64,000 nt of DNA. Origin: an uncultured Flavobacteriales bacterium (GTDB lineage: Bacteria; Bacteroidota; Bacteroidia; Flavobacteriales_D; Crocinitomicaceae). The stretch is taken from positions 1 to 64,000 of the forward strand of contig CAJXMN010000006.1 in assembly GCA_913056215.1 (NCBI GenBank). Reading direction: 5' to 3'. The notes beneath the pieces were generated by a model, which did no database searches, had not been told where the DNA came from, and saw only the letters and a list, made by a program, of their open reading frames with translations. Below, piece by piece: positions 1-63,789 of this stretch (its first letter is position 1; every line of letters starts with the position of its first letter). The position numbers and the translations under genes were made by a program.

Positions 1-2366
1 TGGGTTGAAATAAAGTACTCAAGAATTGAGAGCCCTTCTTTAAAGTTCGATAAAATCGGGTTTTCAATAATTTCTTGCGTTGAAGCTCCAGACTTTTGTG
101 GTTTCGCCATCAACCCTCTCATACCGGAAAGCTGACGAATTTGTTCTTTCGAACCACGCGCACCAGAATCGAACATCATGAAAATCGAGTTGAATCCTTG
201 CTTGTCATTCTTGAGCTGTTCCATCAAGGTATGCGTAAGTCTCGAGTTCGTACGTGTCCAAATATCAATAATCTGGTTATAACGCTCGTTATTAGTGATA
301 AGTCCCATGTTGTAGTTTTCCATTACTTCTACAACACTTGTATTGGCTTTATCAACAAGCTCTTCTTTTTCTTTAGGAATTATAATATCATCAAGGTTAA
401 AGGACAATCCGCCTCGAAAGGCCATGTCATAACCTACATCTTTAATCTCATCAAGGAATTCTGCTGTACGCGAAGTACCTGAAATCTTCAATACTTTACC
501 AATAATATCACGCAAAGCTTTCTTAGTCAGAATATCATTGATGAAACCAACTTCTTTGGGTACCATTTCATTGAAAAGTACACGACCAACCGTTGTTTCA
601 ATCATTTGTAACGTCGATTCCCCTTTATCGTTCAGGTCATACGTTCTCACCTTGATGTGCGCATGTAAATCAACGCTTCCTTCATTCAATGCAATGCGTA
701 CTTCTTCCGGTGAATAGAATGTCATTCCCTCACCTTTCATCGTACGATCTTTATCCGTTTTACGCCCTTTAGTCATATAGTAAAGACCAAGTACCATATC
801 CTGTGAAGGTACGGCAATAGGCGCACCGTTCGCTGGATTCAGAATATTGTGCGAAGACAACATCAGAAGCTGTGCCTCAAGTATTGCAGCATTACCCAAT
901 GGAAGGTGTACCGCCATCTGGTCACCATCAAAATCGGCATTAAAAGCTGTACAAACAAGGGGGTGTAGTCGAATCGCTTTACCTTCAATTAATTTCGGTT
1001 GAAATGCTTGAATACCTAATCGGTGCAATGTCGGTGCACGGTTAAGTAACACAGGATGTGATTTGATGACATTCTCTAAAATATCCCAAACTACAGGTTC
1101 CTTTTTATCAACGATTTTTTTGGCAGACTTCACCGTCTTTACGATACCTCTTTCAATCAATTTACGAATAATAAACGGCTTGTAAAGTTCAGCAGCCATG
1201 TCTTTAGGAATACCACATTCGTGCATTTTCAAATCAGGACCTACAACAATCACTGAACGCGCTGAATAATCCACTCGCTTACCAAGCAAGTTTTGACGAA
1301 AACGTCCTTGCTTCCCTTTTAATGAATCAGAAAGTGATTTCAATGGACGGTTAGACTCAGTTTTCACCGCACTCGATTTACGAGAATTATCGAAGAGCGA
1401 ATCTACAGATTCCTGCAGCATTCGTTTCTCATTACGCAAGATAACTTCAGGTGCTTTAATTTCAATTAATCGTTTCAAGCGATTGTTTCGAATAATCACA
1501 CGACGATATAAATCGTTCAAATCTGAAGTCGCAAAACGTCCACCATCAAGAGGCACGAGTGGACGCAACTCTGGAGGGGTAACTGGAACTACCTTGATAA
1601 TCATCCATTCCGGACGATTTTCAATACGATCTTGAGAATCGCGCATAGCCTCGACAACCTGCAAACGCTTCAATGCTTCATTTTTACGTTGCATTGAAGT
1701 CTCCGTATTCGCTTTATGTCGCAAATCGTAAGATAGTTGGTGCAGATCAAGTCGTTGTAATAAATCATAAACTGCTTCTGCCCCCATCTTAGCAATAAAT
1801 TTGTTAGGGTCAGAATCGTCCAAATACTGATTTTCCTTAGGTAACTCATCAAGAATATCTAAATATTCCTCTTCCGTGAGGAACTCCATTTTCTCAAGAG
1901 GTTCTCCGTCTGCTTTTTGACCTTCACCACCTTGAATTACGACATATCGCTCGTAATAAATGATCTGGTCTAATTTTTTTGTCGGTAAACCAAGTAGGTA
2001 TCCAATTTTGTTAGGTAACGATCTAAAGTACCAAATATGTGCAACAGGAACTACTAACTGAATATGTCCCATTCTTTCACGACGTACTTTTTTCTCTGTC
2101 ACCTCTACACCACAGCGATCACAAACAATTCCTTTATATCGAATACGCTTGTATTTACCACAGTGACATTCATAATCCTTTACAGGACCAAAGATGCGCT
2201 CGCAGAACAAACCATCTCTTTCTGGTTTATACGTTCTATAATTTATCGTTTCCGGCTTCAACACCTCTCCGCTGGATTGCTCCAAAATTTGTTCTGGAGA
2301 CGCTAGAGAAATCGTAATTTTCGAGAAATTACTTGCCGTATCTTTTGTATCTTTTCTATAAGCCAT
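1..2366 (-). CDS. rpoC: DNA-directed RNA polymerase subunit beta' (partial, C-terminus beyond window)
   Basis: Reverse-strand translation from the ATG at 2364-2366 ([17 protein letters not shown]...) contains the zinc-site region [22 protein letters not shown] and the catalytic [12 protein letters not shown]; runs off the left edge, so absent from the ORF track. Confidence 0.97.
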
Positions 2367-46946: not shown

Positions 46947-48781
46947 CGATCATACCAATTTTGAAAAACAATATATGCCCACATTTGAATCGCTGATTCA
47001 TTTGGGTGTTTACCAAAAAGCTGCCCTTTTAATTGCTCCACGCCCGCTGGTCGAAATAAATTTTGTTGCTGTAGATATGCTGAATCGAACCATTTTGGTC
47101 GTACAACAGACTCCCAGCCTTGTCTGAGCCATGTCGTTAATGGAACTTCAAACCCTTTTTTTGACCTCTTGAACACTTCCTCTGGTAATAAATCCGAAAA
47201 AGCATCTTTTAAAATCTTTTTACTGATTTCGCCGTCATTCTTCCAATCAGAAGGCATTGCATTGGCCAAATTAATAACCTCAGCATCTAAAAACGGCACC
47301 CTTACCTCCAAACTATTGGCCATACTCATTAAATCTACCTTTTTGAGCATATCGTTAGGTAAAACATAAGATTGGTCCATTTGTAAAAAGGCATTCAAAG
47401 TGTCCTGCTGGTCAAATGATGGTAGTTCAAAACGCGCTGTCTTCAGCAATGCGCTGTAATCTTCTTCATCGATAAAAGAGGCGAGAAACCAATAGTTCTC
47501 TGGCCAATCCAACGATTGGAGCTTCTTAAACTTTTGAAGTTGCCTTATTTTATTCGAGAACCAACTGGACCTTGATCCCTGCTTATTTCCATCGATCAAC
47601 TTTGTAGCTAAATTTAGTAAAAGTCCAGGTGATTTAGACTTGAGAAAAGCCCGGTGTTTATTATATCCCGCAAACAATTCATCAGCTCCATCACCTGATA
47701 AACAGACGCTGAGATGCTGAGTCGCTTTTTGAGAAAGAAAAAACATGGCGATTGCACTAGAATCTGCAAACGGCTCATCAAAAGTATTGAGAATTCGTGG
47801 CAATTCATCAGTTACAATATCATTGGAAAGCGTAATTGCATGATGATTGGATCCAATATGATCAGCCACCATTTGAGCATATTTTGATTCATCGTAGAAC
47901 TCATGTTCTTCAAAACCAATTGAAAAAGTAGAAAGCTCTGTTTTAAAATCAGCGGCAATAGCCGAAACAATAGAACTATCAACTCCACCACTCAAAAATG
48001 TCCCCAAAGGCACATCTGCATTTAACCTGGAAATTACAGCGTGTTCTACTTTTTGTCGCAAGTCCATTGATGCTGCCTCATAGTTTTCCCATTTATTCGT
48101 CGTTTCTTTCTCTGTGTGATAAGAGACCATATCTAAATCCCCTCCTTTTATCTTTAAGCAATGTCCCGGCATTAATTTTTGCACCTGACTCAACATCGTC
48201 CTTGGTGCAGGGACGTAGGTAAATCGAAAATAATGTGAGAGTGCTACGTCATCAATCGTATGTTCATCAATTAACCATTTAAATGCATTAAGTTCTGAAG
48301 CAAAACTAATTTGCTCTTCGGCAATTGAAAAAAGCAGGGGTTTAATCCCCATACGATCTCGTGCTAGTATCAAATCGTCTTCTTCAGCATCGTAAAAAGA
48401 AAATGCAAAACAACCTTCGAGATCCGAAATTCCTTCTGTTCCATATTGGATTAAATGATAAAGCAGTACCTCGGTATCGGAAGACGTTTGAAACTGATAA
48501 TCTTGTTTAAGCAAATCATTTTTTAGCGATTGATAATTGTAAATCTCTCCGTTAAACACAATCGAATAGCGACCTGTTGCATCAACCAATGGCTGATTGG
48601 AACGCTCTTTGGTATCAATTATTGCTAAACGATTATGGCCCAAAACTGTATTCCCTTTCACCAAGACCTTCGAATGATCAGGTCCGCGATGACACTGCAT
48701 CGGCAATGCATTTTCTACACGCATTTGATCACCTTTCTCAGGAGCACTGCTAAATATTTTAATTCCGACTATGCCACACAC
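46925..48781 (-). CDS. asnB: Asparagine synthase (glutamine-hydrolysing)
   Basis: 618 aa; GTG start giving catalytic Cys2 (MCGIVGIKIF), LSGGVDSSIVSAIA. Confidence 0.93.
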   Translation of the reverse strand: MCGIVGIKIFSSAPEKGDQMRVENALPMQCHRGPDHSKVLVKGNTVLGHNRLAIIDTKERSNQPLVDATGRYSIVFNGEIYNYQSLKNDLLKQDYQFQTSSDTEVLLYHLIQYGTEGISDLEGCFAFSFYDAEEDDLILARDRMGIKPLLFSIAEEQISFASELNAFKWLIDEHTIDDVALSHYFRFTYVPAPRTMLSQVQKLMPGHCLKIKGGDLDMVSYHTEKETTNKWENYEAASMDLRQKVEHAVISRLNADVPLGTFLSGGVDSSIVSAIAADFKTELSTFSIGFEEHEFYDESKYAQMVADHIGSNHHAITLSNDIVTDELPRILNTFDEPFADSSAIAMFFLSQKATQHLSVCLSGDGADELFAGYNKHRAFLKSKSPGLLLNLATKLIDGNKQGSRSSWFSNKIRQLQKFKKLQSLDWPENYWFLASFIDEEDYSALLKTARFELPSFDQQDTLNAFLQMDQSYVLPNDMLKKVDLMSMANSLEVRVPFLDAEVINLANAMPSDWKNDGEISKKILKDAFSDLLPEEVFKRSKKGFEVPLTTWLRQGWESVVRPKWFDSAYLQQQNLFRPAGVEQLKGQLFGKHPNESAIQMWAYIVFQNWYDRWSEKLK

Positions 48782-48819
48782 AATATTTTAACGACTTTTA
48801 ATGCAAAAAAAATAATGCC

Positions 48820-50286
48820 ATGAAGATAATAGTTGTCAGTATATTTTGGGTCTTTTTTCTGAATTTCTGCCATGGCCAGTCTGATAACGTCATCCAGAAC
48901 GCTATAAATGATTTCCTAAACCATGAGGAGTTAAAAAACGCCGCTGTAAGCTTTGCCGCCTATGATATAACTGGAGATAGCCTTATTGCTGCACATAATG
49001 ATGAAATGGCCATCCCACCAGCTTCGACAGTTAAACTCTTTACAACGGCGACGGCATTTGAAGAACTCGGTGCAGACTACAAACCGAAGACAAGAATATA
49101 CACGAAAGGGAAGATTGACACTTGCGGTGTTCTCAAAGGAGACCTCATCATTCGAGGAGGTGGAGACCCCACTTTAGGAAGCAAGTATTTTACAAATGAA
49201 TCAACACGACAAGATTTTTTAAAACAATGGGTAAGCCTCATCAAAAAAGAGGGGATTCATTCGATTGAAGGAAATATCATCACCGATGCTTCAGCGTTTG
49301 GATATCAGGGCGCCCCCGATGGCTGGTCCTGGTCCGACATGGGGAATTATTATGGTGCAGGCCCAAGTGGGCTCGTCATTTACGATAATATGACCCGACT
49401 TCATTTCTCAACGAGTCGAGGAATGAATGAACCCACCGAACTCGATTCAATGACACCTCCTGTTGACGGTTACCGTTTACTTAATACCGTGACCACCTAC
49501 AACTCAAGTCGAGACAATTGCTATATCTACGGAGCTCCTTTTAGTTACGACCGTTTTGCCGTTGGAAATCTTCCTCGCAATCGCAGTAATTTTGAGGTCA
49601 AAGCCAGTATCCCCGATCCCGAATTATTAATGGCGCAAGAGGTTCGCAAAGCATTGCTTCGAGATAGCCTGACAATCACGGGAAAAGGGCTCGGAATGCG
49701 AGAATTACTAAAATCCCAACGTGAACCCATCGACTATAAAGCATGTAATAAAGTTGCTACTTACACCAGCAAGACCATCCAAGATATTGCCTACTGGACC
49801 AATAAAAGAAGCGTCAATCTTTTCGCAGAGCAATTATTAACATTAATCGCTTATGAAAAAACAGCACTTGGAACCACTGATAATGGGGCCACTTACATTA
49901 ATTCATATTGGGCACCGCGACTAAACATAGAAATGTTTCAAACTGATGGCAGCGGTCTATCGCGAAGTAATGGATTTAGTGCTCAGCATTACGTTCGACT
50001 TATAGATTACATGCATGAAAGTAACCAATTTGAAAATTACAAATCTACCTTCGCTGTAGCTGGGAAAAGCGGTACATTGAAAGGCGTATGCAGGGGCCAA
50101 GCTGCAAGTGGAAGGCTTTATGCAAAAAGTGGAACAATGAGTCGAATTAAGGCTTATGCTGGATTTGTCGAGAGTACTTCAGGAAAAAAAATTGCCTTTG
50201 CACTCATTGTAAACAACGATCATCTATCCAATTACAGATTGATCAAAAGAATGGAGACATTGTTCAATAAGTTGGCGCGGTTCTGA
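48820..50286 (+). CDS. dacB: D-alanyl-D-alanine carboxypeptidase/endopeptidase (PBP4)
   Basis: 488 aa; PASTVKLFTTATAFEELG (SxxK), RSVNLFAEQLL, AVAGKSGTLKG, AKSGTMSRIKAYAGFVES. Confidence 0.92.
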   Translation: MKIIVVSIFWVFFLNFCHGQSDNVIQNAINDFLNHEELKNAAVSFAAYDITGDSLIAAHNDEMAIPPASTVKLFTTATAFEELGADYKPKTRIYTKGKIDTCGVLKGDLIIRGGGDPTLGSKYFTNESTRQDFLKQWVSLIKKEGIHSIEGNIITDASAFGYQGAPDGWSWSDMGNYYGAGPSGLVIYDNMTRLHFSTSRGMNEPTELDSMTPPVDGYRLLNTVTTYNSSRDNCYIYGAPFSYDRFAVGNLPRNRSNFEVKASIPDPELLMAQEVRKALLRDSLTITGKGLGMRELLKSQREPIDYKACNKVATYTSKTIQDIAYWTNKRSVNLFAEQLLTLIAYEKTALGTTDNGATYINSYWAPRLNIEMFQTDGSGLSRSNGFSAQHYVRLIDYMHESNQFENYKSTFAVAGKSGTLKGVCRGQAASGRLYAKSGTMSRIKAYAGFVESTSGKKIAFALIVNNDHLSNYRLIKRMETLFNKLARF

Positions 50287-50754
50287 TTAACGCGGGTAAA
50301 CCCTTTTATATGTAAATTCAATATTTAACGGTATATCAAATCGACCATATTCCTTTTTATAAGTAAAAGATGAATCGCTCCATCGAACCAGGGGCATGAC
50401 ATATTGATCTTCAGTTGTTTTTAAATTGATCTGCGAACGATCTGCCATAACCGAATATTGCCCCCTAATGATCGTAATCTCATCAGGACCTCCATTGAAT
50501 TTTTCAATATACGTACCATCTGGCTTAAAAGTAATTGTTGATTGAGTATGGTTCCGTCCATCTTCAATCCAATTATTTACTTTTGCTCTCCAGTTTTCAG
50601 GTATTAATTCCGCCAGACTACCAGCTCCCTTTTCCTGAACCTCGTACTTCTTATATTCCCACGATCCAATGAATGGATCTTCCGGTTGTTCACAGGCTGA
50701 CATAGTTGTGAAAAGAAAAATCAAAATACCACTGCTTTTCAATAAAGTTCCCAT
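50287..50754 (-). CDS. Lipocalin-like hypothetical lipoprotein
   Basis: 155 aa; lipobox-like TTMSACEQ, FIGSWEYKKYEV, TFKPDGTYIEKFNGG. Confidence 0.65.
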   Translation of the reverse strand: MGTLLKSSGILIFLFTTMSACEQPEDPFIGSWEYKKYEVQEKGAGSLAELIPENWRAKVNNWIEDGRNHTQSTITFKPDGTYIEKFNGGPDEITIIRGQYSVMADRSQINLKTTEDQYVMPLVRWSDSSFTYKKEYGRFDIPLNIEFTYKRVYPR

Positions 50755-50801
50755 AATTTTGTTTTACATACTATAGTACAAAGATATCAAAATTTGAAGG
50801 C

Positions 50802-51314
50802 ATGGAAGAGATCGTAAATAAGGTAAAGAAAAGTGGATTGGTTCAACTGGATTTAGCTGATTTTAAAGCTCAAACACCAGTAGTCACCATTGATCTAAAG
50901 AATAATTTATGGCAGGGACTGGCTTTAAAGGAAAAGGATTTCCGTGCCTTTGTAAAAGAACACGACTGGACGCAGTATCACGGTAAAGCTGTTGGTGTAT
51001 TTTGTTCTGTCGACGCGATCATTCCAACCTGGGCTTACATGTTAGTAATTTCGCATCTCCAACAGGCAGGTGTCATGGCTTTCGTAGGAGACGAAAAAGC
51101 TGTAGAAAAAGAATTGATCAAACAGAATATCGACGCTACAGACACTAGGGAGTACCAAGATGCAAAATTAATCATTAAAGGTTGTGCTGATATTGCAGAT
51201 CCTGCATACACCATGTCTGAACTATTAAAAAAATTACAACCTGTTGCTTCGAGTATCATGTATGGTGAGCCTTGTTCTACGGTTCCTGTGTATAAAAAGC
51301 CGAGGAAGAAGTGA
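50802..51314 (+). CDS. DUF2480 family protein
   Basis: 170 aa; VQLDLADFKAQTPVVTIDLKNNLWQGLALKEKDFR, VFCSVDAIIPTWAYMLV. Confidence 0.85.
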   Translation: MEEIVNKVKKSGLVQLDLADFKAQTPVVTIDLKNNLWQGLALKEKDFRAFVKEHDWTQYHGKAVGVFCSVDAIIPTWAYMLVISHLQQAGVMAFVGDEKAVEKELIKQNIDATDTREYQDAKLIIKGCADIADPAYTMSELLKKLQPVASSIMYGEPCSTVPVYKKPRKK

Positions 51315-51439
51315 TAAATGTTGGCAGGCAAAGAGCATTTTCGCTTTGTTCCCCGATGCGTCCATCTCTATGGTCCTGCTTTTAAAGCGAGGGAATAATC
51401 AGCCTGCATGTACCTCAGTAGTTTGCAGTAGAAACAAAA

Positions 51440-51823
51440 CTAAGTATCTTTAAGCTTACTCAGCAATGTTTCAATCTGTTTGTTACATTCATCTAATTGT
51501 ATTTTCAAAATATTTATGGTTTCCTGAAGAAGCTCCTTTTGCTGGTCGAATATTTCCTTTTGACTGTTTAACAAACTTGAGATATGGTCGAAGTGCAGTG
51601 AATTGTTCTCCAGACTTATATTTTCCGGAGAATTAAAAAAGTTTTTTTCTTCAACTTGAAACAAATGAGACAACAATGAAATGCGCTCTGCAGATAATTT
51701 TGTAATATTATTTTCTAACTTACTATAAGCTGTTTGGGAAATACCAAGAAAATCAGCAGCCTCCTCTTGAGAAACCCCTTTTGATTTTCTGATTTTTCGA
51801 ATACTATTACTATTTATAACCAT
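51440..51823 (-). CDS. XRE-family HTH regulator with coiled-coil C-terminus
   Basis: 127 aa; IRKIRKSKGVSQEEAADFLGISQTAYSKLENNITKLSAERISLLSHLFQV. Confidence 0.9.
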   Translation of the reverse strand: MVINSNSIRKIRKSKGVSQEEAADFLGISQTAYSKLENNITKLSAERISLLSHLFQVEEKNFFNSPENISLENNSLHFDHISSLLNSQKEIFDQQKELLQETINILKIQLDECNKQIETLLSKLKDT

Positions 51824-51878
51824 AATATTCGTTTTTAGATTGTAAATATAATTTTCTAGAATAACAATGAGAGGCGTT

Positions 51879-52009
51879 TTATCATAAATTTGGTATACAC
51901 TAATGTGTTATGATAATTATATACATTTAATTGCGGTAAAGTGTAGCCAACTTTTGGTAAAATATAATTAAAGTAGTACCGTTTATTAACCGATTAAAAT
52001 TTATCATAA
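51879..52009. repeat. Three copies of 9-bp motif TTATCATAA (two direct, one inverted) between XRE gene and divergent secreted-protein gene
   Basis: TTATCATAA at 51879-51887, TTATGATAA at 51908-51916, TTATCATAA at 52001-52009. Confidence 0.75.
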
Positions 52010-52069
52010 CAGGAGACAAAGCCTGAACACTCCTAAAATCAAAGTAAGGCCTAATTTAATTTTAATGTT

Positions 52070-53119
52070 ATGAATAATTACTTAAAAGTATTATCTGTAT
52101 TAATTCTATCAATGAATTTCCCATTTATGAGTATAGCAGATGGGAATTGCAGGACTCGAAATGACTGTAACTTGACAGGCTGGAAGTATAAAGCAAGAGC
52201 AAGAGTGAATAAATTTGGATACCCTTCAAGAGATGTTGATAAAGGATGTCCCGGAGGGTATTATTTTGCTTATGTGGACAATGGATGTGCTTGGCAGAAT
52301 GCTGAAAATTGGTATGGTACACATGCTGAAAATGGCTCTGTTTACAAAAACACTAGTATATGTGCCAGAGGAAATTCAAGCTCAGAATTATATTACGATT
52401 ACTATTTAAACAACAGAAAGGATAATTCATTTTTTGAACACGGAAAATACAGTACCGCAAGAGTCCAATTCCAAAACAAAAAAGTTACATTGGACTCTAT
52501 TAATATTCAACTTCAAGCAAAAGGTGAAGATTTATATAGTTCTTTTGAAGTAATGATGTGGTTACCACAAAATGAACATGATACAATTCAGAGTCTTGAA
52601 AAAAGTTTCCTGTTTGGAAAAATTAAACTAATGAATGGGGAGGTTAAAGGTGAAGGTATATTCGAAGATGTGCCTCTAAGTGTGAGAAAAGATGCTAAAG
52701 GCATATATTCAGTTACACTAAATAATTTTAAAGCTATCGGTAAATTACCAGAGGGTATCACTAATCAAAATAGTACAATAGAAGTTTATACATCCTCTGA
52801 CGGAGGCATCGATGAAAAATCAGCAATAGAGAATGCTTTAGATAACAATTCGTTCGAAGTGAAAACTTACCCAAATCCAACAAGTAAAATAATAAGTGTA
52901 TCTATCAATGAGTTAAATTCTGATGAAAAATATTCACTTACACTTTATAACAGAAATGGGAAAGCAATTTCTATCATAGGAAACAACATCTCTGCTCATA
53001 AACTGGATGAATACCAGATTAATTTAAAAGAGAAAACAAGCAGTAAAGGGATGTACTTTTTGTTTATTAAGTCTAATGATGGAAAACAAAAGCGATTATC
53101 AAAGATAATTTATCAATAG
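52070..53119 (+). CDS. Secreted Cys-rich protein with T9SS type A sorting domain
   Basis: 349 aa; signal peptide, NCRTRNDCNLTGWKYKARARVNKFGYP...GCPGGYYFAYVDNGCAW, C-terminal KTYPNPTSKIISVSI...SSKGMYFLFIKSNDGKQKRLSKIIYQ. Confidence 0.85.
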   Translation: MNNYLKVLSVLILSMNFPFMSIADGNCRTRNDCNLTGWKYKARARVNKFGYPSRDVDKGCPGGYYFAYVDNGCAWQNAENWYGTHAENGSVYKNTSICARGNSSSELYYDYYLNNRKDNSFFEHGKYSTARVQFQNKKVTLDSINIQLQAKGEDLYSSFEVMMWLPQNEHDTIQSLEKSFLFGKIKLMNGEVKGEGIFEDVPLSVRKDAKGIYSVTLNNFKAIGKLPEGITNQNSTIEVYTSSDGGIDEKSAIENALDNNSFEVKTYPNPTSKIISVSINELNSDEKYSLTLYNRNGKAISIIGNNISAHKLDEYQINLKEKTSSKGMYFLFIKSNDGKQKRLSKIIYQ

Positions 53120-53126
53120 TATGAAC

Positions 53127-53162
53127 AACTTTCCCCTTTTAAATTTACAAAAGGGGAAAGTT
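53127..53162 (+). terminator. Perfect 14-bp hairpin between secreted protein and beta-barrel genes
   Basis: AACTTTCCCCTTTT-aaatttac-AAAAGGGGAAAGTT followed by TAATT. Confidence 0.75.
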
Positions 53163-53174
53163 TAATTCAAGAAT

Positions 53175-53885
53175 ATGAAGAAAATTTTGAGGTTATTCAT
53201 GACAGTTGGGTTTGCTTTGCCAATATTAGCTCAAAATAACTCCTTTAAAGATAGAACAAATCACATTATTTCAGTAGGAGCTACCAATTCGGTCATTATT
53301 AATAAATACAAGTATATCAATGACTATGCAGGATTTAGCAACAAACAAATATCCATAGATTTTGAATTTGGGTATTTATTTTCCTATCAAATCATAAGGG
53401 AATTAGAACTGAAAACAGGAGCAAACATCTATTCATTTGTCCGGGATGCGTTTAAATATTACAGTACTACGCGAATATCATCAAAGGGCTTACCAAACAT
53501 ACCATTATTGATCGAATATAAACCATTTACTCAATCAAGTTTATTTATTTCTGGTGGTTTAAAAATATCCATGGATCCTTATGACGCAACTTTTGAAACA
53601 TATTACCCAGGTAATTCCAATGACTTATATCCTGAAAAGTCAATTATGACAGAACATAAAGCGGGTGTGAACCCAATAATTTCATTAGGAATAGGCCGTT
53701 CAAAATTAATTAAGGATAAATACAGAATAGAATGGTTGTTATCCTATAACCAAGGCACAAAATCGTTGCGAAATTTTACTTTTATCCGTTATAACCCTTA
53801 TGTAAAATCGGAGGTAAAATCATATGGTTCACACCTTAACTTTAGTCTAAGATACTATCTTAAAAAGTACAATAAAAATGAATAA
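53175..53885 (+). CDS. Outer-membrane beta-barrel protein
   Basis: 236 aa; signal peptide (MKKILRLFMTVGFALPILAQ), alternating aromatic beta strands ending SHLNFSLRYYLKKY. Confidence 0.75.
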   Translation: MKKILRLFMTVGFALPILAQNNSFKDRTNHIISVGATNSVIINKYKYINDYAGFSNKQISIDFEFGYLFSYQIIRELELKTGANIYSFVRDAFKYYSTTRISSKGLPNIPLLIEYKPFTQSSLFISGGLKISMDPYDATFETYYPGNSNDLYPEKSIMTEHKAGVNPIISLGIGRSKLIKDKYRIEWLLSYNQGTKSLRNFTFIRYNPYVKSEVKSYGSHLNFSLRYYLKKYNKNE

Positions 53886-54531
53886 AAACATCTTAATCTC
53901 ATTACTTGCGTTCGTTTTTTACCACTCGTTTTTATTCAGTCAGAACAGCAACAAAAAAAATGAATTCTGGATCAATGCAGGTGTCACATCAGAATTACTA
54001 AGTGTTAATGCAACAAATGTTGGTAGCTTCAAAAATAGAAATAGAATAGGTGCCAGTCTTGGAATTGAAAGACGAAGTTATCTTCAAGAACAATTTAGTG
54101 TGAATTATGGATTCCAAATTAAATCTTTCCGTAAGTCGTTCATTTTTAATTTTAACGAAGTTTTTATAGAAGATATTAATTTACACATACCAATATCATT
54201 GAATTACAATTTAAAACTAGTTGATCAGCATTTTGTAAGTTTTTTATTGGGTTTAAATGGAGTTATACAGACATCTGAACAAGCTAAATTTTCTACGTCA
54301 GATTATCAAATGAAAGTTGAGCGGAAAGCAGGTATTTTTCCTAATCTTAAATTCGGTTTTGGGTATAAGTTTTTAAATAGAAGAAGTTTTGCAATAAATA
54401 TTCATTACAATATGGGCTTTATTCAAAGAAAAAGCGAAACTGTAGAATATGTTCCCTCAGAAAGCAATGTTGAATTATGGTCTGACGGTTCTTTTATGGA
54501 AGTAGAGTTTCAATTTAGATTGAGTAAATGA
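53878..54531 (+). CDS. Outer-membrane beta-barrel protein
   Basis: 217 aa; signal peptide, beta-barrel-like strands, C-terminal EVEFQFRLSK; overlaps upstream gene by 8 nt. Confidence 0.75.
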   Translation: MNKNILISLLAFVFYHSFLFSQNSNKKNEFWINAGVTSELLSVNATNVGSFKNRNRIGASLGIERRSYLQEQFSVNYGFQIKSFRKSFIFNFNEVFIEDINLHIPISLNYNLKLVDQHFVSFLLGLNGVIQTSEQAKFSTSDYQMKVERKAGIFPNLKFGFGYKFLNRRSFAINIHYNMGFIQRKSETVEYVPSESNVELWSDGSFMEVEFQFRLSK

Positions 54532-54913
54532 TGTACTCATTACATAAAAAAGCTCAAGCGACAAAAGTTCACTCGCAGCAGTTGCATGTGCCAGTTTGCA
54601 AACCGTAGTTCACAATATTGAACCTTTTAAACATGAATGAGATGATAAGTAGAAAGTTCGTCTGTTTTTAAAAGACGCTGGCTTTTATATTGGAATTTGA
54701 AGTAGCTTTCAACTAATTCCATGGAGACCGAATAAAAAGTCACGATAAAAAAAGTGAAACACGATAAAAAGACTTATCAACCCAGCTAATACTATCCACC
54801 ACCGTTTTCTTTATCCACATGCTACTCAAAAGCGCCACGTGTGCTTTGTCGAAGTATGCCGCAAAACAAATGTCTTTGAAGGTATACCGATTTATTTTCA
54901 GCTGACTTTTTAG

Positions 54914-54921
54914 TATCTTTG
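54914..54921 (+). promoter_or_regulatory. -7 element TATCTTTG immediately ahead of uvrC
   Basis: TATCTTTG-TGACA-ATG; no clear -33 TTG. Confidence 0.5.
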
Positions 54922-54926
54922 TGACA

Positions 54927-56738
54927 ATGTCAGAGCGGCTCGAAAAGATCAAAGCAAAAATCAAAACGTTACCCAATAAACCGGGGATTTATCAATATTT
55001 TGATGAAACAGGTAAGATCATTTATGTCGGTAAAGCTAAAAACCTCAAAAAACGAGTCAGTTCGTATTTTACCAAAAATCACGATACAGCTAAGACGCGC
55101 ATTCTCGTTCGACGAATTCACGACATTCATTATATCGTAGTTGACACAGAGACAGATGCCTTGTTACTGGAAAACAACCTCATCAAAAAGTATCGCCCTC
55201 GCTACAACATTCAACTCAAAGACGACAAGACATACCCCTGGATCTGTATTAAGAACGAACGATTTCCACGTGTTTTTAGCACCAGGAGAGTCATCAAAGA
55301 CGGATCAAAGTACTATGGTCCCTACCCTTCTGTGAAGATTGTTAACACGTTGCTATCACTCATGCGTGAATTGTATCCGCTGCGAACCTGTCACTATGAC
55401 TTGAGTGAAGAGAACATCCAAAAAGGTAAATATAAAGAGTGTTTAGAATATCATATCGGGAATTGCAAGGCACCTTGCATCGGCAAAGAGAGTGAATCTA
55501 ACTACCAAGAATACATCGATCAGATTGAGCATATTGTAAAAGGAAATATCGCTTCCGTCATCCGCATGCTGAAAGAAAAAATGAGCGCTGCGGCAGAAAA
55601 GTTCGAATTTGAAGAAGCGGAAAACCTCAAACAAAAGATCAAATCACTGGAAAAGTACAAGGCTAAATCAACGGTTGTATCCCCTACCATACATCAGGTA
55701 GATGTTTTAACCCTTAACAAAGGAGAAAAAAATGCTTTTGTGAATTATTTGGTCATCAACAACGGTGCGATCATTCATGGACATACGGTCGAGGTTAAAA
55801 AGAAGCTCGACGAACCCGATGAAGAAATTCTCACCTTTGTCCTTTTGAATATGCGAGAGAAGTTCAACAGTCAATCCAGGGAAGTCCTCGTGGAAAATGC
55901 AAACGCTTTAGATGTGAAAGGTCTCGATTTCTTTACTCCACAGCGTGGCGATAAAAAACATCTGCTCGATCTATCGGCTCGGAATGCAAAATTCTACCGC
56001 ATGGAGCGACAAAAACAAGAACACGCCAAAAATCCAGAGGTCAGAACTGAACGATTGCTCCAAAAGATCCAGAAGGATTTCCGGTTAAAAGAACTTCCTG
56101 TACACATGGAGTGTTTTGATAACTCGAATATTCAGGGTACAAATCCCGTATCAGCTTGCGTCGTTTTTAAGAATGGGCGACCGAGCAAAAAGGATTACCG
56201 CCATTTCAACATTCGGACCGTGGAAGGTCCCGACGATTTTGAATCGATGCGCGAAGCAATATACCGTCGCTATAAACGAATGCTTGAAGAAGGAGGGTCA
56301 TTACCACAGCTGCTTATTGTCGATGGAGGTAAAGGACAACTCAGCGCTGGTGTAGAAGCACTTGAACGACTCGAACTTCGCGGTAAATTGCCAATCGTTG
56401 GGATTGCCAAACGGCTGGAAGAAATATTCTTCCCGGGAGATAACTTACCGTTGTATCTGGACAAGAAAAGTGAAAGCCTGAAGGTCATACAGTATATGCG
56501 AAACGAAGCCCATCGCTTCGGAATTGAGCATCATCGCAACCGCAGAAGTAAAGCGGCGCTTGGATCTGAGCTGCTGGAAATTGAAGGGATCGGTGAAAAA
56601 ACCCAAGAAACACTGTTAAGGCATTTCAAAACGATTTCAAGGATTAAAGCCGCTTCTGAAAAAGAACTCGAGGAAGTCGTAGGATTAGCAAAAGCTAAAA
56701 TTTTGCAACACCATTTTTACTCCTCGCAAACCCAATAA
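54927..56738 (+). CDS. uvrC: Excinuclease ABC subunit C
   Basis: MSERLEKIKAKIKTLPNKPGIYQYFDETGKIIYVGKAKNLKKRVSSYF; HMECFDNSNIQGTNPVSACVVF; ATG 54927 preferred. Confidence 0.97.
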   Translation: MSERLEKIKAKIKTLPNKPGIYQYFDETGKIIYVGKAKNLKKRVSSYFTKNHDTAKTRILVRRIHDIHYIVVDTETDALLLENNLIKKYRPRYNIQLKDDKTYPWICIKNERFPRVFSTRRVIKDGSKYYGPYPSVKIVNTLLSLMRELYPLRTCHYDLSEENIQKGKYKECLEYHIGNCKAPCIGKESESNYQEYIDQIEHIVKGNIASVIRMLKEKMSAAAEKFEFEEAENLKQKIKSLEKYKAKSTVVSPTIHQVDVLTLNKGEKNAFVNYLVINNGAIIHGHTVEVKKKLDEPDEEILTFVLLNMREKFNSQSREVLVENANALDVKGLDFFTPQRGDKKHLLDLSARNAKFYRMERQKQEHAKNPEVRTERLLQKIQKDFRLKELPVHMECFDNSNIQGTNPVSACVVFKNGRPSKKDYRHFNIRTVEGPDDFESMREAIYRRYKRMLEEGGSLPQLLIVDGGKGQLSAGVEALERLELRGKLPIVGIAKRLEEIFFPGDNLPLYLDKKSESLKVIQYMRNEAHRFGIEHHRNRRSKAALGSELLEIEGIGEKTQETLLRHFKTISRIKAASEKELEEVVGLAKAKILQHHFYSSQTQ

Positions 56739-56964: not shown

Positions 56965-59900
56965 ATGATAAATAATAAGATAGATACATCCTTTGTCGCA
57001 TCAATTACTCTATTCACCATTTTCATGGCGTTTGGTTTTCATGCTTATAGTCAGTGCAGTAATGTAACTCCTCAATTTAATGTCAACCAAAATTCATTTT
57101 GTGGCGCAGGACCACATTCAGTAGTACTGACAAATACCAGTATTGGACCTAATGCAGCTACTGCCAACTATGAATGGCTACTTAACGGGACAACTTTTGA
57201 TAACACTACAGGTCTCGCTAGTCCTAATAACGCAACACTTCCAGGCTCTGGAACTTACACGATAGAACTTATCGCTTCTGATGGTCCTCCACCATGTACG
57301 GAAAGCACAACAAGTAATATCACTGTTTTTTCTCAACCCAATGCTGATTTTTCATTTGCACCTAATAATGATTGTGCGGGTGTTGATGTAGATTTTACCA
57401 ATCTTTCTACAAATACGAACGGGGGAACATCCTATACTTGGGATTTTGGAGATGGAAATACATCAAATCAAGAAAATCCGACTCATGTATATGCAAGTGG
57501 TGGCAACTATAATGTTACGTTAACAGTACAAAATGCTTCTGGATGCTCTTCGAATTTTTCACTAACTGTTACTGCATTAGACATTCCAGACGTTGCCATT
57601 TCTGGTGATGACGGAGATGGTAATCTCACTAATTGTTTACTCCCTGGAGATCCCACAGTCTTGAACACGGTCGACTTTTTTAATTCAACTACAGGTGCGA
57701 CAAATTATTACTGGGATTTTGGAGATGGTAACGCTAGTACTGGGTATGAACCCCCACACATCTATAATACATTCGGAACCTTCAATGTGGTCATGACCGC
57801 AACAGGATCCAACGGATGCTCAGCAAGCGATACAATAGAAGTCGTATTTGAAAAATTTGTTTCGGCTTCTTTAAATTTAGATGTTACCGAATACAGCGGA
57901 TGTGCTCCCTTTGAATTGACAACATTACAAAACAATTCAAATAATGCCAATTCATTTGTGTGGGACTTCGGAGATGGTTCCCCTCCCTACACTACAACGA
58001 ATCAAACACCACCCAATCATATCTACACAGATGCTGGAACCTACACCATTTCATTAACAGCCTCCAATAGCTGTAATACAGCAAATGCGACTATTAGTCC
58101 AATCGTGATCGTAGATAAACCAGAAATCGATTTCATGACATCTGTCACAGTCGGATGTGCTCCAGAAACGGGTATTAGTTTCACTAATAATTCCGTGGGC
58201 GCTTCACCAGCTAATGACTATGAATGGGATATGGGAAATGGTAACACCTATACAAGCACAGTTGATCCGCCCAATCAAACTTATCTGAATGCTGGGACTT
58301 ATACGGTCTCCTTAAACGGAAGTAACGCATGCGGTGATTCTATGCTTACCCAAAACATCGTTTTAGATACGGTACCTACTGCATCAATAGATGTTAATCC
58401 AGTGGACGAGTGCTCTCCAGAAACGTACATATTTGATAATTTCTCGAGTGCAAATACCGATAATTACACCTGGTATCTCGATGGAGCGGTCTACAGTAAT
58501 GACTCAATCATTGCTCCCTTGACATTTACTTATCCTCCTGGAAATACTCCGGTAGAACATGAGATTGTTTTAGAAGTCTCTAATGCGTGTGGAACCGATT
58601 TAGATACTGTGAACATCACAGTACACCGGCCAACAGAAGCACAGTTTAATATTTCAGCCCCCAATAGTTGTTTAGGTGATCCAGTGACGTTCACCAACAA
58701 CAGTTTGGGAGAGAACCTTACATATGAATGGGATTTCGGAAATGGAACAACCTCAACCATCGCGGGTCCACACACCATTAATTACACCTCCCCTGGAAAC
58801 TATACCGTTCAATTAATTGCTGATGGCTATTGTGGATCAGACACCGTGGAACAAACTATTGTGGTCAATCCATTGACTTCAGCAAACTTTCAAGCTTTAG
58901 ATCCTATTGAAGGCTGCTCTCCATTAACAGTATCACTTGACAACAACTCTACTGGCGTCAATTTATCCTACAACTGGACTGTAGATGGAAATCCTGCAGG
59001 TACGACTACAGATTTGGGACCATTAACCTTTACTGAGAGTCCGGGTAACTCGCCAGTGAATCACACCATAGAACTTACGGTCAATAGCGCATGTGGTGTA
59101 GTAACGGATCAAATTACCGTTACTGTGCATCGTCCAACAGAAGCAGCTATTGACGTTACACCCAATGAAATTTGTTTAGGTGAAAGTATCACTGCAACGG
59201 ACAATTCTCTCGGGGAGAACCTTTCTTTTAATTGGGATTTTGGAGATGGCACTACCTTCAACAGTCAAGGGCCCCACACCCATACCTATTCCGCTGACGG
59301 AACATATACCATAGCCCTTGTTGCCGATGGATATTGTGGGCCTGACACTATAGAACAAAACATTATTGTTCACCCGTATCCCGTTGCTGATTTTACACCT
59401 GACCAACTTGACGGTTGTGCTGCTTTAGATATGACATTTACAAACAACTCAACTACGAGTGCGAATCACTCCTGGGATTTTGGTCCCAATGCAACTCCCG
59501 GAACCAGCGCGAGCGTAAATCCTGGCGCGATCACTTTCCCTAATGCAGGTACAGAAACCATCATTTTAGAAGTTGAAGAAAACGGCTGTATTTCAAGTGA
59601 TACCAATTCCATAACGGTTTATCCAGCGCCCGTCGTTGATTTTGCTGTAACCCCTGACGAAGGTTGTAGTCCGCTCGATGTTGTAATTACAAACAATTCT
59701 ATTAATACAGGAATAGAGACTTTTACCTGGGATTTTGACAATGGAAATTCATTTGTAGGTTTCAATGCCCCAGATCAGACCTATACCTCTATTTTAAACG
59801 ATACGATCTACGATTTACAACTACACATTCAAAGCGGCGATGGCTGTGAAGACTCTCTCAACGTTCCAATAACTGTTCACCCCGTTCCAAATGCTGAATA

Positions 59901-62900
59901 TGATTTCTATGAAGATTCAATTTGCCTCAACGAATTAGTTAATATTAATAATACGTCTACTCCAGGAATGATTTACAACTGGGATTTCGATGACGGAAAT
60001 ACCTCTAGCGCCTTTGAACCATCACACCAATATGCTTCAGCAGGCACCTATAATGTTGAACTTATCACAACTTCACCATTCAATTGTACCGATACGGTTA
60101 CACGAACAATTACCGTTCTTCCTATTCCTGATGCTCAATTTTCCAATACGACCGAATGCCTGGGTAATCAGACAGTTTTTACTGACAATTCAACGGGAAA
60201 CATCACAGGATGGTCATGGGTGTTCGGGGATGGAAGCACATCCAACGTACAAAACCCAACACATAACTATACTTCTGCAGGAACCTTCAATACTGAACTA
60301 ACCGTCGAAAATAATTTTAACTGTTTCAATTCAATTACTCAAACTGTAAATGTGAACGATGTACCAACTGCTGATTTTAATGTTACTGATTTTTGCCTGG
60401 GTGACAACACACAATTTACTAACCAAACGATAGGAACTACAACACAAGTCGAATGGAATTTTGATGATGGATCACCGCTGACCAACACTAATAACCCCAT
60501 ACATACTTTTCCTACAACGGGCTCTTACGATGTTCAGCTCATAGCTTTTGGGGGTAGTGGTTGTTCCGACACTATTGTTCAAACAATCACTATTACAGAC
60601 ACCCCAACTGCAGACTTCTCATTCTTAACAGCGTGTACTAATGACAGCACATTCTTTACTGATTTATCAACAGGATCTCCGGATAGCTATCTATGGGATT
60701 TTGACAATGGAACGACATCAACGACACCTAACCCGACTAACATTTACAACACTCCTGGTACTTATGACGTAAGTCTAACAGTCGCATATACGAGTAGCGG
60801 TTGTTCAAACACCATCAGTTATGCCGTAGATGCTCACCCGAGGACAACTCCTCAGTTTACAGCCAATACACCATGCCTCGGTACCGAAACTGATTTTATT
60901 GATCAAACAGGTAATAATCCTATATTGTGGGAATGGGATTTTGATAATGGAAGTCCTGTTTCTAATGTTCAAAACCCTTCTCATGAATACACTTCACCTG
61001 GTATATATGAGGTATCTCTTATTACCGAAAACGCATTCGGTTGTTCCGATACACTCACTCAAAGTGTTGAAGTATACGAACTACCAACTCCTGACTTTAC
61101 TTTTGATACGGTTTGCTTGAATGCAGTGACTTCAATTATTGATCAAAGTCAAAATGCTGTAGATTGGGAGTACGATTTTGGAGATGGAACCATCGTTAAT
61201 GGGCAGAACCCAACACACACTTATGGCTCAGACGGAACATTCACCGTTTCACAAGTGGTTACGAATACAGAAGGCTGTTCAGACACCTTGGAGCATGATG
61301 TGATCGTTCGGCCGAATCCTACGGCTTTATGGCAGGCAGATACCGCTTGTTTCTCTTATCTTACTTCATTCACAGATATTTCTGTGGATGCAATTACCTG
61401 GGACTGGAATTTTGGTGATATGGGTGCAACAAGTACTCAGCAAAATCCTCAACATGTATATAGTGCAGACGGGACCTACAATGCAGAATTGATCGTTGCA
61501 AATACTTTTGGTTGCACGGACACCCTAAACGAAGCTGTTCTCGTTCATCCACAACCAGTCGCTGATTTTACGAATGCCACTGTTTGTGCAGGAAATGCTG
61601 TTAATTTCACAAACACATCTCAAGGTAATCCAATACTGTTTAATTGGGATTTTGATGACGGAAATCCGGTGAGCACAAACGAAAATCCTACGCATACTTT
61701 TGTTACAGGCGGCTTCTACGACATTGAATTTATCGCCGAGAACAATGTAGGTTGTGCAGATACATTGGTGGAACAGATTGAAGTATTCACTGTTCCAGAT
61801 GTAAATTTCGAAGCAGATACGGTTTGTTTATTTGACATTACCAACTTCACCGACTTAACGCAGGACCCAACTCCACTCCTTTCATGGGATTGGGATTTTG
61901 GAGACGGTAATACGTCGTTCCAGCAAAACCCTTCGTATATCTATCAGAATCCAGGTACTTATGATGTAGCTTTAACCGTAACCAATAACAATGGCTGTGA
62001 CTCTACCATCAATCAGGATGTCATCGTTTCTCAGGTACCAGAGGCCGACTTTACTGTTCAAACTGATTGCTTCGGAGCACCGACGCAATTTACTGATCAA
62101 TCCACCAACAACCCAGGAATTTGGCTCTGGGACTTCGGCGATGGAACAACGATTAACGGAGGCCCTAATGAAACACATACCTACGCTGCTCCCGGAAATT
62201 ATGTGGTCACATTAGATGTGTTTGGAAGTGATAGCATTTGCTCAGACCAGGCGGTTCAAGTGGTCACGGTGAATCAACAAGCACAAGCGGATTTCTTTAT
62301 TCCGAGTCAAATCTGTGCAACCGAAACCTTCAACTTTACCGATAACAGTTCTACCAACTTAGGGAATATTACTTCCTATGAATGGGATATGGGCGACGGA
62401 TCAATTTACACAACAGCAAATGGTACTCATAATTACGCTACAAATGGGATTTACACCGTAACGCTCACTATTACTACCACTAATGGTTGTCAAAGTACCT
62501 ATAGCGAATCAATAGAGGTATTCCCGATCACCGTAGCGGATTTCGACTGGAGTTTAGCCTGTGAAGGACAATCCATATTATTCACAAATATATCTACTGG
62601 AAATACAACCAATTGGTTTTGGGACTTTGATGACGGCACGACATCGAGCAACCAAAACCCCACACATACCTTTAATTCACCTGGAAGCTACGACGTTCGG
62701 CTTATTGTACAAAATCTGGCCGGGTGCCCCGACACCGTAGTAAATACAATTGAGGTACACCCTGCACCAGTGGCAAACTTTACTTCAAACAATGTGTGTT
62801 ATGGTGAAGCTACCAGCTTTTCTGATTTGTCCACCTTAAACAGCGGGAATATCGCGAATTGGGAGTGGCAATTCGAAAATGGCAATACGAGTAATAATCA

Positions 62901-63789
62901 AAACCCAAATTACACCTTCTCAAATTATACAGAGCAACACGATGTTCAACTGATCGTTACATCTGACCAAGGATGTAATGACACCATTCAAAAGATAGCT
63001 CAATTACTCCCTATTATCGATTTTCAGATTGCCATCGAAAACAGTATCGGTTGTGCCCCTATGGAGGTGCTTTTTGATAACCAAAGTACCTTGAATGGAG
63101 CGAATATCACAAATTATTCCTGGAGTTTTGATGATGGCTCTACATCTTTCCAGCAAACACCTACTCATTTATTTGATTCGACGGGTACTTACAACGTTTC
63201 GCTATCTATCTCAACAGATACCGACTGCCAATTTATCAACGATAGTTCTATTACAATCGAAGTATTTCCAAAACCACAAGCTGGTTTCGATGCCACTCCT
63301 TCTATTGTTTCAATTACAGACCCCGTCATTGGAGTTACAGATGAATCTAACGGAGCGAACAGTTGGGAATATGAGTTGAGCGATGGCAATTACTATAATG
63401 CTCCCAATTTCAATCACACTTTTAACGGACCTGGAGAATTCTTCATCACTCAGTTTATATCAAACGAGTATGGCTGTCTTGACACAACGCGTCGCGCAGT
63501 GCGTGTCAAAGATCAACTCAACTTGTATGTTCCCAATAGCTTTACTCCTAACAACGATGGTAAAAATGATGTATTTAAATGGGAGGTTACTGGTTACAAA
63601 CATGCTGAAATGCGAATATTTAACCGTTGGGGGGAAGAGATCTTCAATGCGCAAGATCCGACTGAATATTGGGACGGCACTTATACGGGCGAAACAGTAC
63701 GAGATGGCGTATACATCTGGCAAGTCAAAATCATTGATCTCAATGGCGACGAACAACTCTACACAGGCCATGTTTCAGTAATTCGTTAA
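56965..63789 (+). CDS. Giant PKD-repeat surface protein with T9SS type B (gliding motility-associated) C-terminal domain
   Basis: 2274 aa; ~26 PKD-like WDFGDG-type motifs; C-terminus VPNSFTPNNDGKNDVFKWEVTGYKHAEMRIFNRWGEEIFNA...DGVYIWQVKIIDLNGDEQLYTGHVSVIR. Confidence 0.95.
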   Translation: MINNKIDTSFVASITLFTIFMAFGFHAYSQCSNVTPQFNVNQNSFCGAGPHSVVLTNTSIGPNAATANYEWLLNGTTFDNTTGLASPNNATLPGSGTYTIELIASDGPPPCTESTTSNITVFSQPNADFSFAPNNDCAGVDVDFTNLSTNTNGGTSYTWDFGDGNTSNQENPTHVYASGGNYNVTLTVQNASGCSSNFSLTVTALDIPDVAISGDDGDGNLTNCLLPGDPTVLNTVDFFNSTTGATNYYWDFGDGNASTGYEPPHIYNTFGTFNVVMTATGSNGCSASDTIEVVFEKFVSASLNLDVTEYSGCAPFELTTLQNNSNNANSFVWDFGDGSPPYTTTNQTPPNHIYTDAGTYTISLTASNSCNTANATISPIVIVDKPEIDFMTSVTVGCAPETGISFTNNSVGASPANDYEWDMGNGNTYTSTVDPPNQTYLNAGTYTVSLNGSNACGDSMLTQNIVLDTVPTASIDVNPVDECSPETYIFDNFSSANTDNYTWYLDGAVYSNDSIIAPLTFTYPPGNTPVEHEIVLEVSNACGTDLDTVNITVHRPTEAQFNISAPNSCLGDPVTFTNNSLGENLTYEWDFGNGTTSTIAGPHTINYTSPGNYTVQLIADGYCGSDTVEQTIVVNPLTSANFQALDPIEGCSPLTVSLDNNSTGVNLSYNWTVDGNPAGTTTDLGPLTFTESPGNSPVNHTIELTVNSACGVVTDQITVTVHRPTEAAIDVTPNEICLGESITATDNSLGENLSFNWDFGDGTTFNSQGPHTHTYSADGTYTIALVADGYCGPDTIEQNIIVHPYPVADFTPDQLDGCAALDMTFTNNSTTSANHSWDFGPNATPGTSASVNPGAITFPNAGTETIILEVEENGCISSDTNSITVYPAPVVDFAVTPDEGCSPLDVVITNNSINTGIETFTWDFDNGNSFVGFNAPDQTYTSILNDTIYDLQLHIQSGDGCEDSLNVPITVHPVPNAEYDFYEDSICLNELVNINNTSTPGMIYNWDFDDGNTSSAFEPSHQYASAGTYNVELITTSPFNCTDTVTRTITVLPIPDAQFSNTTECLGNQTVFTDNSTGNITGWSWVFGDGSTSNVQNPTHNYTSAGTFNTELTVENNFNCFNSITQTVNVNDVPTADFNVTDFCLGDNTQFTNQTIGTTTQVEWNFDDGSPLTNTNNPIHTFPTTGSYDVQLIAFGGSGCSDTIVQTITITDTPTADFSFLTACTNDSTFFTDLSTGSPDSYLWDFDNGTTSTTPNPTNIYNTPGTYDVSLTVAYTSSGCSNTISYAVDAHPRTTPQFTANTPCLGTETDFIDQTGNNPILWEWDFDNGSPVSNVQNPSHEYTSPGIYEVSLITENAFGCSDTLTQSVEVYELPTPDFTFDTVCLNAVTSIIDQSQNAVDWEYDFGDGTIVNGQNPTHTYGSDGTFTVSQVVTNTEGCSDTLEHDVIVRPNPTALWQADTACFSYLTSFTDISVDAITWDWNFGDMGATSTQQNPQHVYSADGTYNAELIVANTFGCTDTLNEAVLVHPQPVADFTNATVCAGNAVNFTNTSQGNPILFNWDFDDGNPVSTNENPTHTFVTGGFYDIEFIAENNVGCADTLVEQIEVFTVPDVNFEADTVCLFDITNFTDLTQDPTPLLSWDWDFGDGNTSFQQNPSYIYQNPGTYDVALTVTNNNGCDSTINQDVIVSQVPEADFTVQTDCFGAPTQFTDQSTNNPGIWLWDFGDGTTINGGPNETHTYAAPGNYVVTLDVFGSDSICSDQAVQVVTVNQQAQADFFIPSQICATETFNFTDNSSTNLGNITSYEWDMGDGSIYTTANGTHNYATNGIYTVTLTITTTNGCQSTYSESIEVFPITVADFDWSLACEGQSILFTNISTGNTTNWFWDFDDGTTSSNQNPTHTFNSPGSYDVRLIVQNLAGCPDTVVNTIEVHPAPVANFTSNNVCYGEATSFSDLSTLNSGNIANWEWQFENGNTSNNQNPNYTFSNYTEQHDVQLIVTSDQGCNDTIQKIAQLLPIIDFQIAIENSIGCAPMEVLFDNQSTLNGANITNYSWSFDDGSTSFQQTPTHLFDSTGTYNVSLSISTDTDCQFINDSSITIEVFPKPQAGFDATPSIVSITDPVIGVTDESNGANSWEYELSDGNYYNAPNFNHTFNGPGEFFITQFISNEYGCLDTTRRAVRVKDQLNLYVPNSFTPNNDGKNDVFKWEVTGYKHAEMRIFNRWGEEIFNAQDPTEYWDGTYTGETVRDGVYIWQVKIIDLNGDEQLYTGHVSVIR
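58399..59400 (+). repeat. Tandem super-repeat of a two-domain unit (period ~504 nt) inside the PKD protein
   Basis: PVDECSP...VHRPTEAQF...NSLGENLTYEWDFGNGTT...ADGYCGSDTVEQTIVV versus PIEGCSP...VHRPTEAAI...NSLGENLSFNWDFGDGTT...ADGYCGPDTIEQNIIV, spaced 168 codons. Confidence 0.8.

Follow-up and report, generated by a model that had tools for sequence, protein, structure and literature searches.

The window (the whole 64-kb stretch of DNA analysed here) carries, between its DUF2480 and uvrC genes, a compact block of four genes: a small XRE regulator and, divergent from it, the gene for a secreted T9SS protein (hereafter the cargo) followed by two genes for small outer-membrane barrels (Table 1). 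All four open reading frames lie where an earlier sequence-only reading of this DNA had placed them. The XRE protein scored 55.8 against an HTH_3 cut-off of 23 and has the coiled-coil-like tail that had been described for it. The two barrel genes overlap, as had also been noted, with the start of barrel 2 lying 8 bp inside the end of barrel 1.

Table 1. Features of the inserted block and of related loci (window positions unless a locus or residues are named)
Feature	Coordinates	Strand	Basis
Whole inserted block	51313..54911	.	Aligned flanks abut in G009; absent in six other congeners
XRE/HTH_3 regulator with coiled-coil-like C-terminal tail, 127 aa	51440..51823	-	PF01381 E=4.8e-15
Candidate operator array	51878..52011	.	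TTATCATAA at 51879-51887(+), 51908-51916(-), 52001-52009(+)
T9SS type A cargo, 349 aa	52070..53119	+	PF18962/TIGR04183 above cut-off; RemA-CTD fold; homologues in G093, G597, G120
Cargo layout	Signal peptide, residues 1-23; Cys-containing domain, about 24-115; beta domain, about 127-250; CTD, 263-349		
Small outer-membrane barrel 1, 236 aa	53175..53885	+	Similar to barrel 2 and G120 barrel; signal peptide by inspection
Small outer-membrane barrel 2, 217 aa	53878..54531	+	PF13568 27.3 bits (cut-off 27); AlphaFold2 model; Foldseek
Non-coding tail of insertion	54532..54911	.	No transposase/integrase ORF in block; no copy elsewhere in own genome
104-aa protein/membrane protein/HisKA_3/LuxR set	L118:10887-13358 (G120); L126:12500-15048 (L107:181-1144) (G597)		

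Insertion site and composition of the block

Alignment to the closest available congener (G009; uvrC 91% and DUF2480 82% identical) revealed that the DUF2480–uvrC junction carries an extra block of 3.6 kb in the window. Window positions 48516-51312 and 54912-56702 correspond to abutting stretches of G009 (L098 1-2797 and 2795-4584), in which 9 bp separate the DUF2480 stop codon from the uvrC ATG. Since the two genes are so close in G009, the block either was inserted into the small space between them or was cleanly lost from the others. It is also absent from all six of the congeners G001-G006, with a DUF2480–uvrC spacing of about 90-640 bp, and DUF2480 was not found in G008. In G007, DUF2480 and uvrC are about 56 kb apart (G007:C25:32090-89895). 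Change may recur at this junction.

The GC content of the block is 0.30-0.33, versus 0.38-0.43 for its flanks. The four block genes (0.295-0.320; z values of -4.4 to -5.7 relative to the 36 other genes of the window) lie below every other window gene in GC, the lowest value among the other 36 being 0.355. On this evidence from alignment and composition the block is an accessory insertion, and horizontal acquisition is the best reading of its origin, consistent with the inserted AT-rich module that the sequence-only reading had described. The same reading had named conservation of the genes at this locus with normal composition, or a lack of co-occurrence elsewhere, as results that would speak against it; we found neither. 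The ORF list of the block contains no transposase or integrase, and a similarity search with the edge DNA and the non-coding tail of the insertion yielded no similar copy elsewhere in the same genome. No toxin, integrase or phage match was obtained for the four block genes with the profile libraries. A phage, toxin-antitoxin or defence origin of the block was considered and rejected, the matches being to generic HTH domains only.

The surroundings of the junction have some features of their own. A 155-aa lipocalin-like lipoprotein gene (window 50287-50754; Pfam matches all sub-threshold) adjoins DUF2480, as it does in G007, where repeat-rich and secreted proteins adjoin both DUF2480 and uvrC. 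On the other side, a 2274-aa PKD-like repeat protein with a CHU_C/type B-like sorting domain at its end is encoded 3' of uvrC (window 56965-63789). For uvrC, the GTG at 54921 is probably not the true start; the likelier one is the ATG at 54927, a codon conserved among congeners.

The cargo family and its barrels

The C-terminal domain of the cargo was recognised by both Por_Secre_tail PF18962 (38.4 bits; cut-off 27) and TIGR04183 (29.8; cut-off 23), in agreement with the type A sorting domain proposed from the sequence, whereas its CHU_C (type B) score was only 14.9 against a cut-off of 27. The modelled CTD resembles the RemA-CTD (8gl6_D) in a Foldseek comparison (TMt 0.66). The N-terminal Sec signal peptide, MNNYLKVLSVLILSMNFPFMSIADG, was recognised by inspection only. 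The region that follows had been called Cys-rich and unrecognised. It is indeed assigned to no named family in the profile libraries searched, and as to its cysteine content it contains five residues (C27, C33, C60, C73 and C98), three of which (C33, C60 and C73) are invariant among the relatives. The N-terminal part had no sequence match in plasmids or the PDB, and neither the Cys-containing nor the middle beta domain had a known match in the profile libraries or, by sequence, in the PDB. The structure model of the Cys domain has a pLDDT of about 22; whole-cargo Foldseek matches outside the CTD had very low TM-scores and were treated as meaningless.

The sorting domain is common, and a search with the full-length cargo returned mostly unrelated proteins sharing only this domain, which were set aside; homologues were therefore sought with the N-terminal domains alone, in 240 genomes of the family and 395 genomes across the class. 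Homologues were identified in three genomes (G093, G597 and G120), which together with the window represent four genera of one Flavobacteriales family. In small pairwise comparisons across the Cys and middle beta domains, E-values were 1e-14 for the window and G597, 2e-9 for the window and G093, and 6e-14 for G093 and G120. The G093 cargo is frameshifted between the Cys domain and the middle domain, or misassembled, and its downstream barrel is intact (L026:9411-10515). The 395 genomes drawn across the class yielded no further convincing member, a scan of 84,980 species with the single sequence was negative, and a motif scan returned one contig, the same as that of G597 (MAG Flavobacteriales bacterium ZH-Oct18-23). 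Weak matches in other families (L024, L030-L034, L109-L112, L114, L115 and L117) proved to be stop-containing frames or unrelated proteins. Judging from these searches, the cargo belongs to a rare, unnamed T9SS type A family.

In all four genomes, the cargo gene is followed on the same strand by one or two genes for exported barrels of 216-244 aa (two in the window and in G597, one in G120 and in G093), and the four cargo–barrel loci occupy different genomic places. Cargo and barrel overlap by 1 bp in G120. Paralogy is clear for the two barrels of G597 and weak for those of the window; between loci, the barrels are highly divergent and barely similar. Barrel 1 gave a sub-threshold PF13568 match only (E=0.17) and was identified chiefly by its resemblance to barrel 2. 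The AlphaFold2 model of barrel 2 (pLDDT 66, pTM 0.59) has about ten predicted strands, and its best Foldseek matches in the PDB are the 8-stranded barrels OmpA, NspA and OmpW. A barrel profile gave no convincing PDB match, and no relative of barrel 2 was found in viral contigs. In profile searches, PF11751 (PorP/SprF) matched neither the window barrels nor those of the homologous loci.

The cargo neighbourhoods of G597 and G120 share a set of genes encoding a 104-aa protein (MSFNG...CPPRCS...NS), a membrane protein of about 200 aa, a HisKA_3 kinase and a LuxR-type response regulator; the first two had no Pfam family match. CBASS-like defence genes, encoding a DncV-like nucleotidyltransferase, a 149-aa protein and a SAVED-domain protein, lie beside the G120 cassette (L118:13547-16344).

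The XRE subfamily and the candidate operator

Co-occurrence of all four genes in other Bacteroidota had been put forward as a check on the sequence-only reading. The cargo and its barrels do recur together, but the XRE lies beside the cargo in none of the three other cargo-family genomes, two of which have the two-component set nearby. A profile search for the XRE subfamily (115-135 aa) gave 66 matches, spread over 35 of the 100 family genomes. We read 40 of these loci with flanks of up to 6 kb, taking the first three genes as the head-to-head operon. With a home-made T9SS tail profile, a simple ORF caller and a small control set (20 regions from same-family genomes, each head-to-head pair counted from both sides), a T9SS tail was found in the head-to-head operon in 13/34 cases for the subfamily versus 5/58 for the controls (p=0.0009). 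With redundant XREs (60% identity or more) left out, the value was 8/19 versus 5/58 (p=0.002). The first divergent gene encoded a signal peptide in 21/34 versus 16/58 cases (p=0.002). The XRE is thus linked to T9SS cargo at the level of its subfamily, and not to the cargo family of the window.

Two of these loci resemble the window in layout. In L198, the XRE faces an M4 peptidase with a T9SS tail and a 239-aa barrel-like protein (4-bp overlap), and in L172, from the same genus, a 577-aa secreted protein and two related barrel-like proteins; the barrel-like proteins of both loci have no Pfam family match and were called barrels from their sequence alone. Homology of the window cargo to the 577-aa protein was tested and found no support. 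Other partners of the subfamily include lipoproteins and grasp-with-spasm peptide clusters, the latter at L167:3107-7792 (TIGR04192 above cut-off) and L175:6844-9009 (TIGR04192 below cut-off). Similar leader-like small ORFs occur near subfamily members in L177 and L184.

The repeat TTATCATAA has three copies in the 64-kb window, all located between the divergent XRE and cargo start codons. Of 2000 dinucleotide shuffles of this 246-bp intergenic region, 29 also reached three copies of a 9-mer, which makes the repeat only modestly unusual; none of the other XRE intergenic regions examined contained it. The three copies are suggestive, and only suggestive, of an XRE operator.

Interpretation and comparison with known systems

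We give about even chances to the reading of the whole block as a T9SS surface-protein cassette that was acquired, is repressed by the XRE and brings dedicated barrels as partners of its cargo. The XRE, probably dimeric via its coiled-coil tail, would bind the TTATCATAA sites between two divergent promoters and repress both its own gene and a three-gene operon. Derepression would lead to a Sec-exported cargo, which the T9SS would move across the outer membrane via the type A CTD, and the small Cys-containing domain and the beta domain would be displayed or released. The two barrels, produced from the same transcript, would be partners of the cargo in the outer membrane (anchor, receptor or protector), like SprF for SprB. 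In favour of this reading are the empty site and the low GC, the sorting domain, the barrel fold, the recurrence of cargo plus barrel, the head-to-head association of the XRE subfamily with T9SS operons, the two loci of similar layout, the intergenic repeats and the SprB/SprF precedent. Repression and the operator, cotranscription, contact between cargo and barrels and a role at the surface we infer. The sequence-only reading had suggested a regulated surface display or secretion unit, and regulated display is likewise an inference here. We regard as doubtful the further proposal that the cargo is a T9SS type A surface protein from a new family, partnered by a dedicated pair of small (8-10 strand) barrels of non-PorP/SprF fold, under a local XRE switch and spread as a mobile cassette.

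Several observations count against the cassette reading. The type A cargo known so far are secreted through PorV, the general shuttle (PMC12618676), and so do not require a barrel of their own; the barrels diverge strongly between loci; the XRE is missing beside the other three members of the cargo family; and the operator repeat is only modestly unusual and lacking in the other XRE intergenic regions examined. The first two, together with Foldseek matches to generic 8-stranded barrels, would suit ordinary small porin or OmpW-like barrels, cotranscribed with the cargo for shared regulation only and otherwise unconnected to it, physically or functionally. This explanation nevertheless appears unlikely, as cargo–barrel adjacency is kept in four of four genomes, in different surroundings and twice with two barrels. 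The missing XRE, and the presence of a HisKA_3/LuxR two-component set near two of the homologues instead, could be accounted for by two independent insertions that brought a stand-alone XRE beside a cargo–barrel operon by chance, without control of the operon. We consider this quite improbable, because the XRE and the operon are alike in their low GC and are enclosed by one pair of insertion edges, with no scar separating them, because members of the XRE subfamily face T9SS and secreted-protein operons more often than control genes do, and because the intergenic repeats sit between the two divergent start codons.

The block might also serve in competition, with the secreted Cys protein acting on neighbouring cells, the barrels protecting the producer and the XRE keeping a costly product off. 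The block is rare, patchy, low in GC and fast-diverging, the cargo copy of G093 is frameshifted, and the same XRE subfamily adjoins grasp-with-spasm clusters (L167 and L175), loci of the secreted bioactive-peptide type, all of which would be in keeping with such a role. However, no toxin, bacteriocin or immunity family was matched and there is no enzymatic motif, and elsewhere the cargo in this arrangement is of an ordinary kind, the M4 peptidase for instance. Competition is therefore an improbable explanation, as is the role that the barrels would have in it, for example occupying or sequestering an outer-membrane target.

T9SS cargo of type B are known to depend on cognate barrels, while those of type A are presumed to have PorV in common. 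If the type A cargo family always has small non-SprF barrels downstream, this would argue for another class of outer-membrane partners, each specific to its cargo. That a single XRE subfamily goes with T9SS cargo, lipoproteins and peptide clusters suggests that Flavobacteriales control their cell surface locally, at the level of the cassette; we found no account of such control in the literature searched.

The barrels can be compared with the outer-membrane beta-barrel families PF13568/PF13505: barrel 2 and the second barrel of G597 reach the PF13568 cut-off, whereas no cut-off is reached by barrel 1 or by most of the barrels at the homologous loci. The regulator resembles the small Cro/CI-type autorepressor RstR (NF041951) in its single HTH_3, short helical tail and divergent orientation from the adjacent operon, but scores only 37.8 against a cut-off of 80 and has no phage or toxin genes beside it. 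The cargo shares with RemA and AmyB (TIGR04183/PF18962) a Sec signal and a type A CTD of about 80 aa with a RemA-CTD-like fold, whereas its Cys-containing domain at the N-terminus and its middle beta domain have no known counterpart. The closest parallel in organisation is that of SprB/SprF and Fjoh_3952/Fjoh_3951, in which the gene for a cognate PorP/SprF-like barrel, needed for secretion and anchoring of the type B cargo, lies directly downstream of the cargo gene (PMC12618676, PMC9143113). The window likewise has the gene for a presumed cognate barrel directly downstream of its T9SS cargo gene, as do all four loci. It differs in the type of CTD (A rather than the B of the SprB class), in its barrels, which have 217-236 aa and match 8-stranded OmpA/OmpW-like folds instead of the 14-stranded FadL type of PorP/SprF, and in having two barrels rather than one, plus an adjacent XRE regulator. 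Since the CTD is not of type B and the barrels do not match PorP/SprF, we do not file the cassette as a member of the SprB/SprF class; by analogy, it may work like one.
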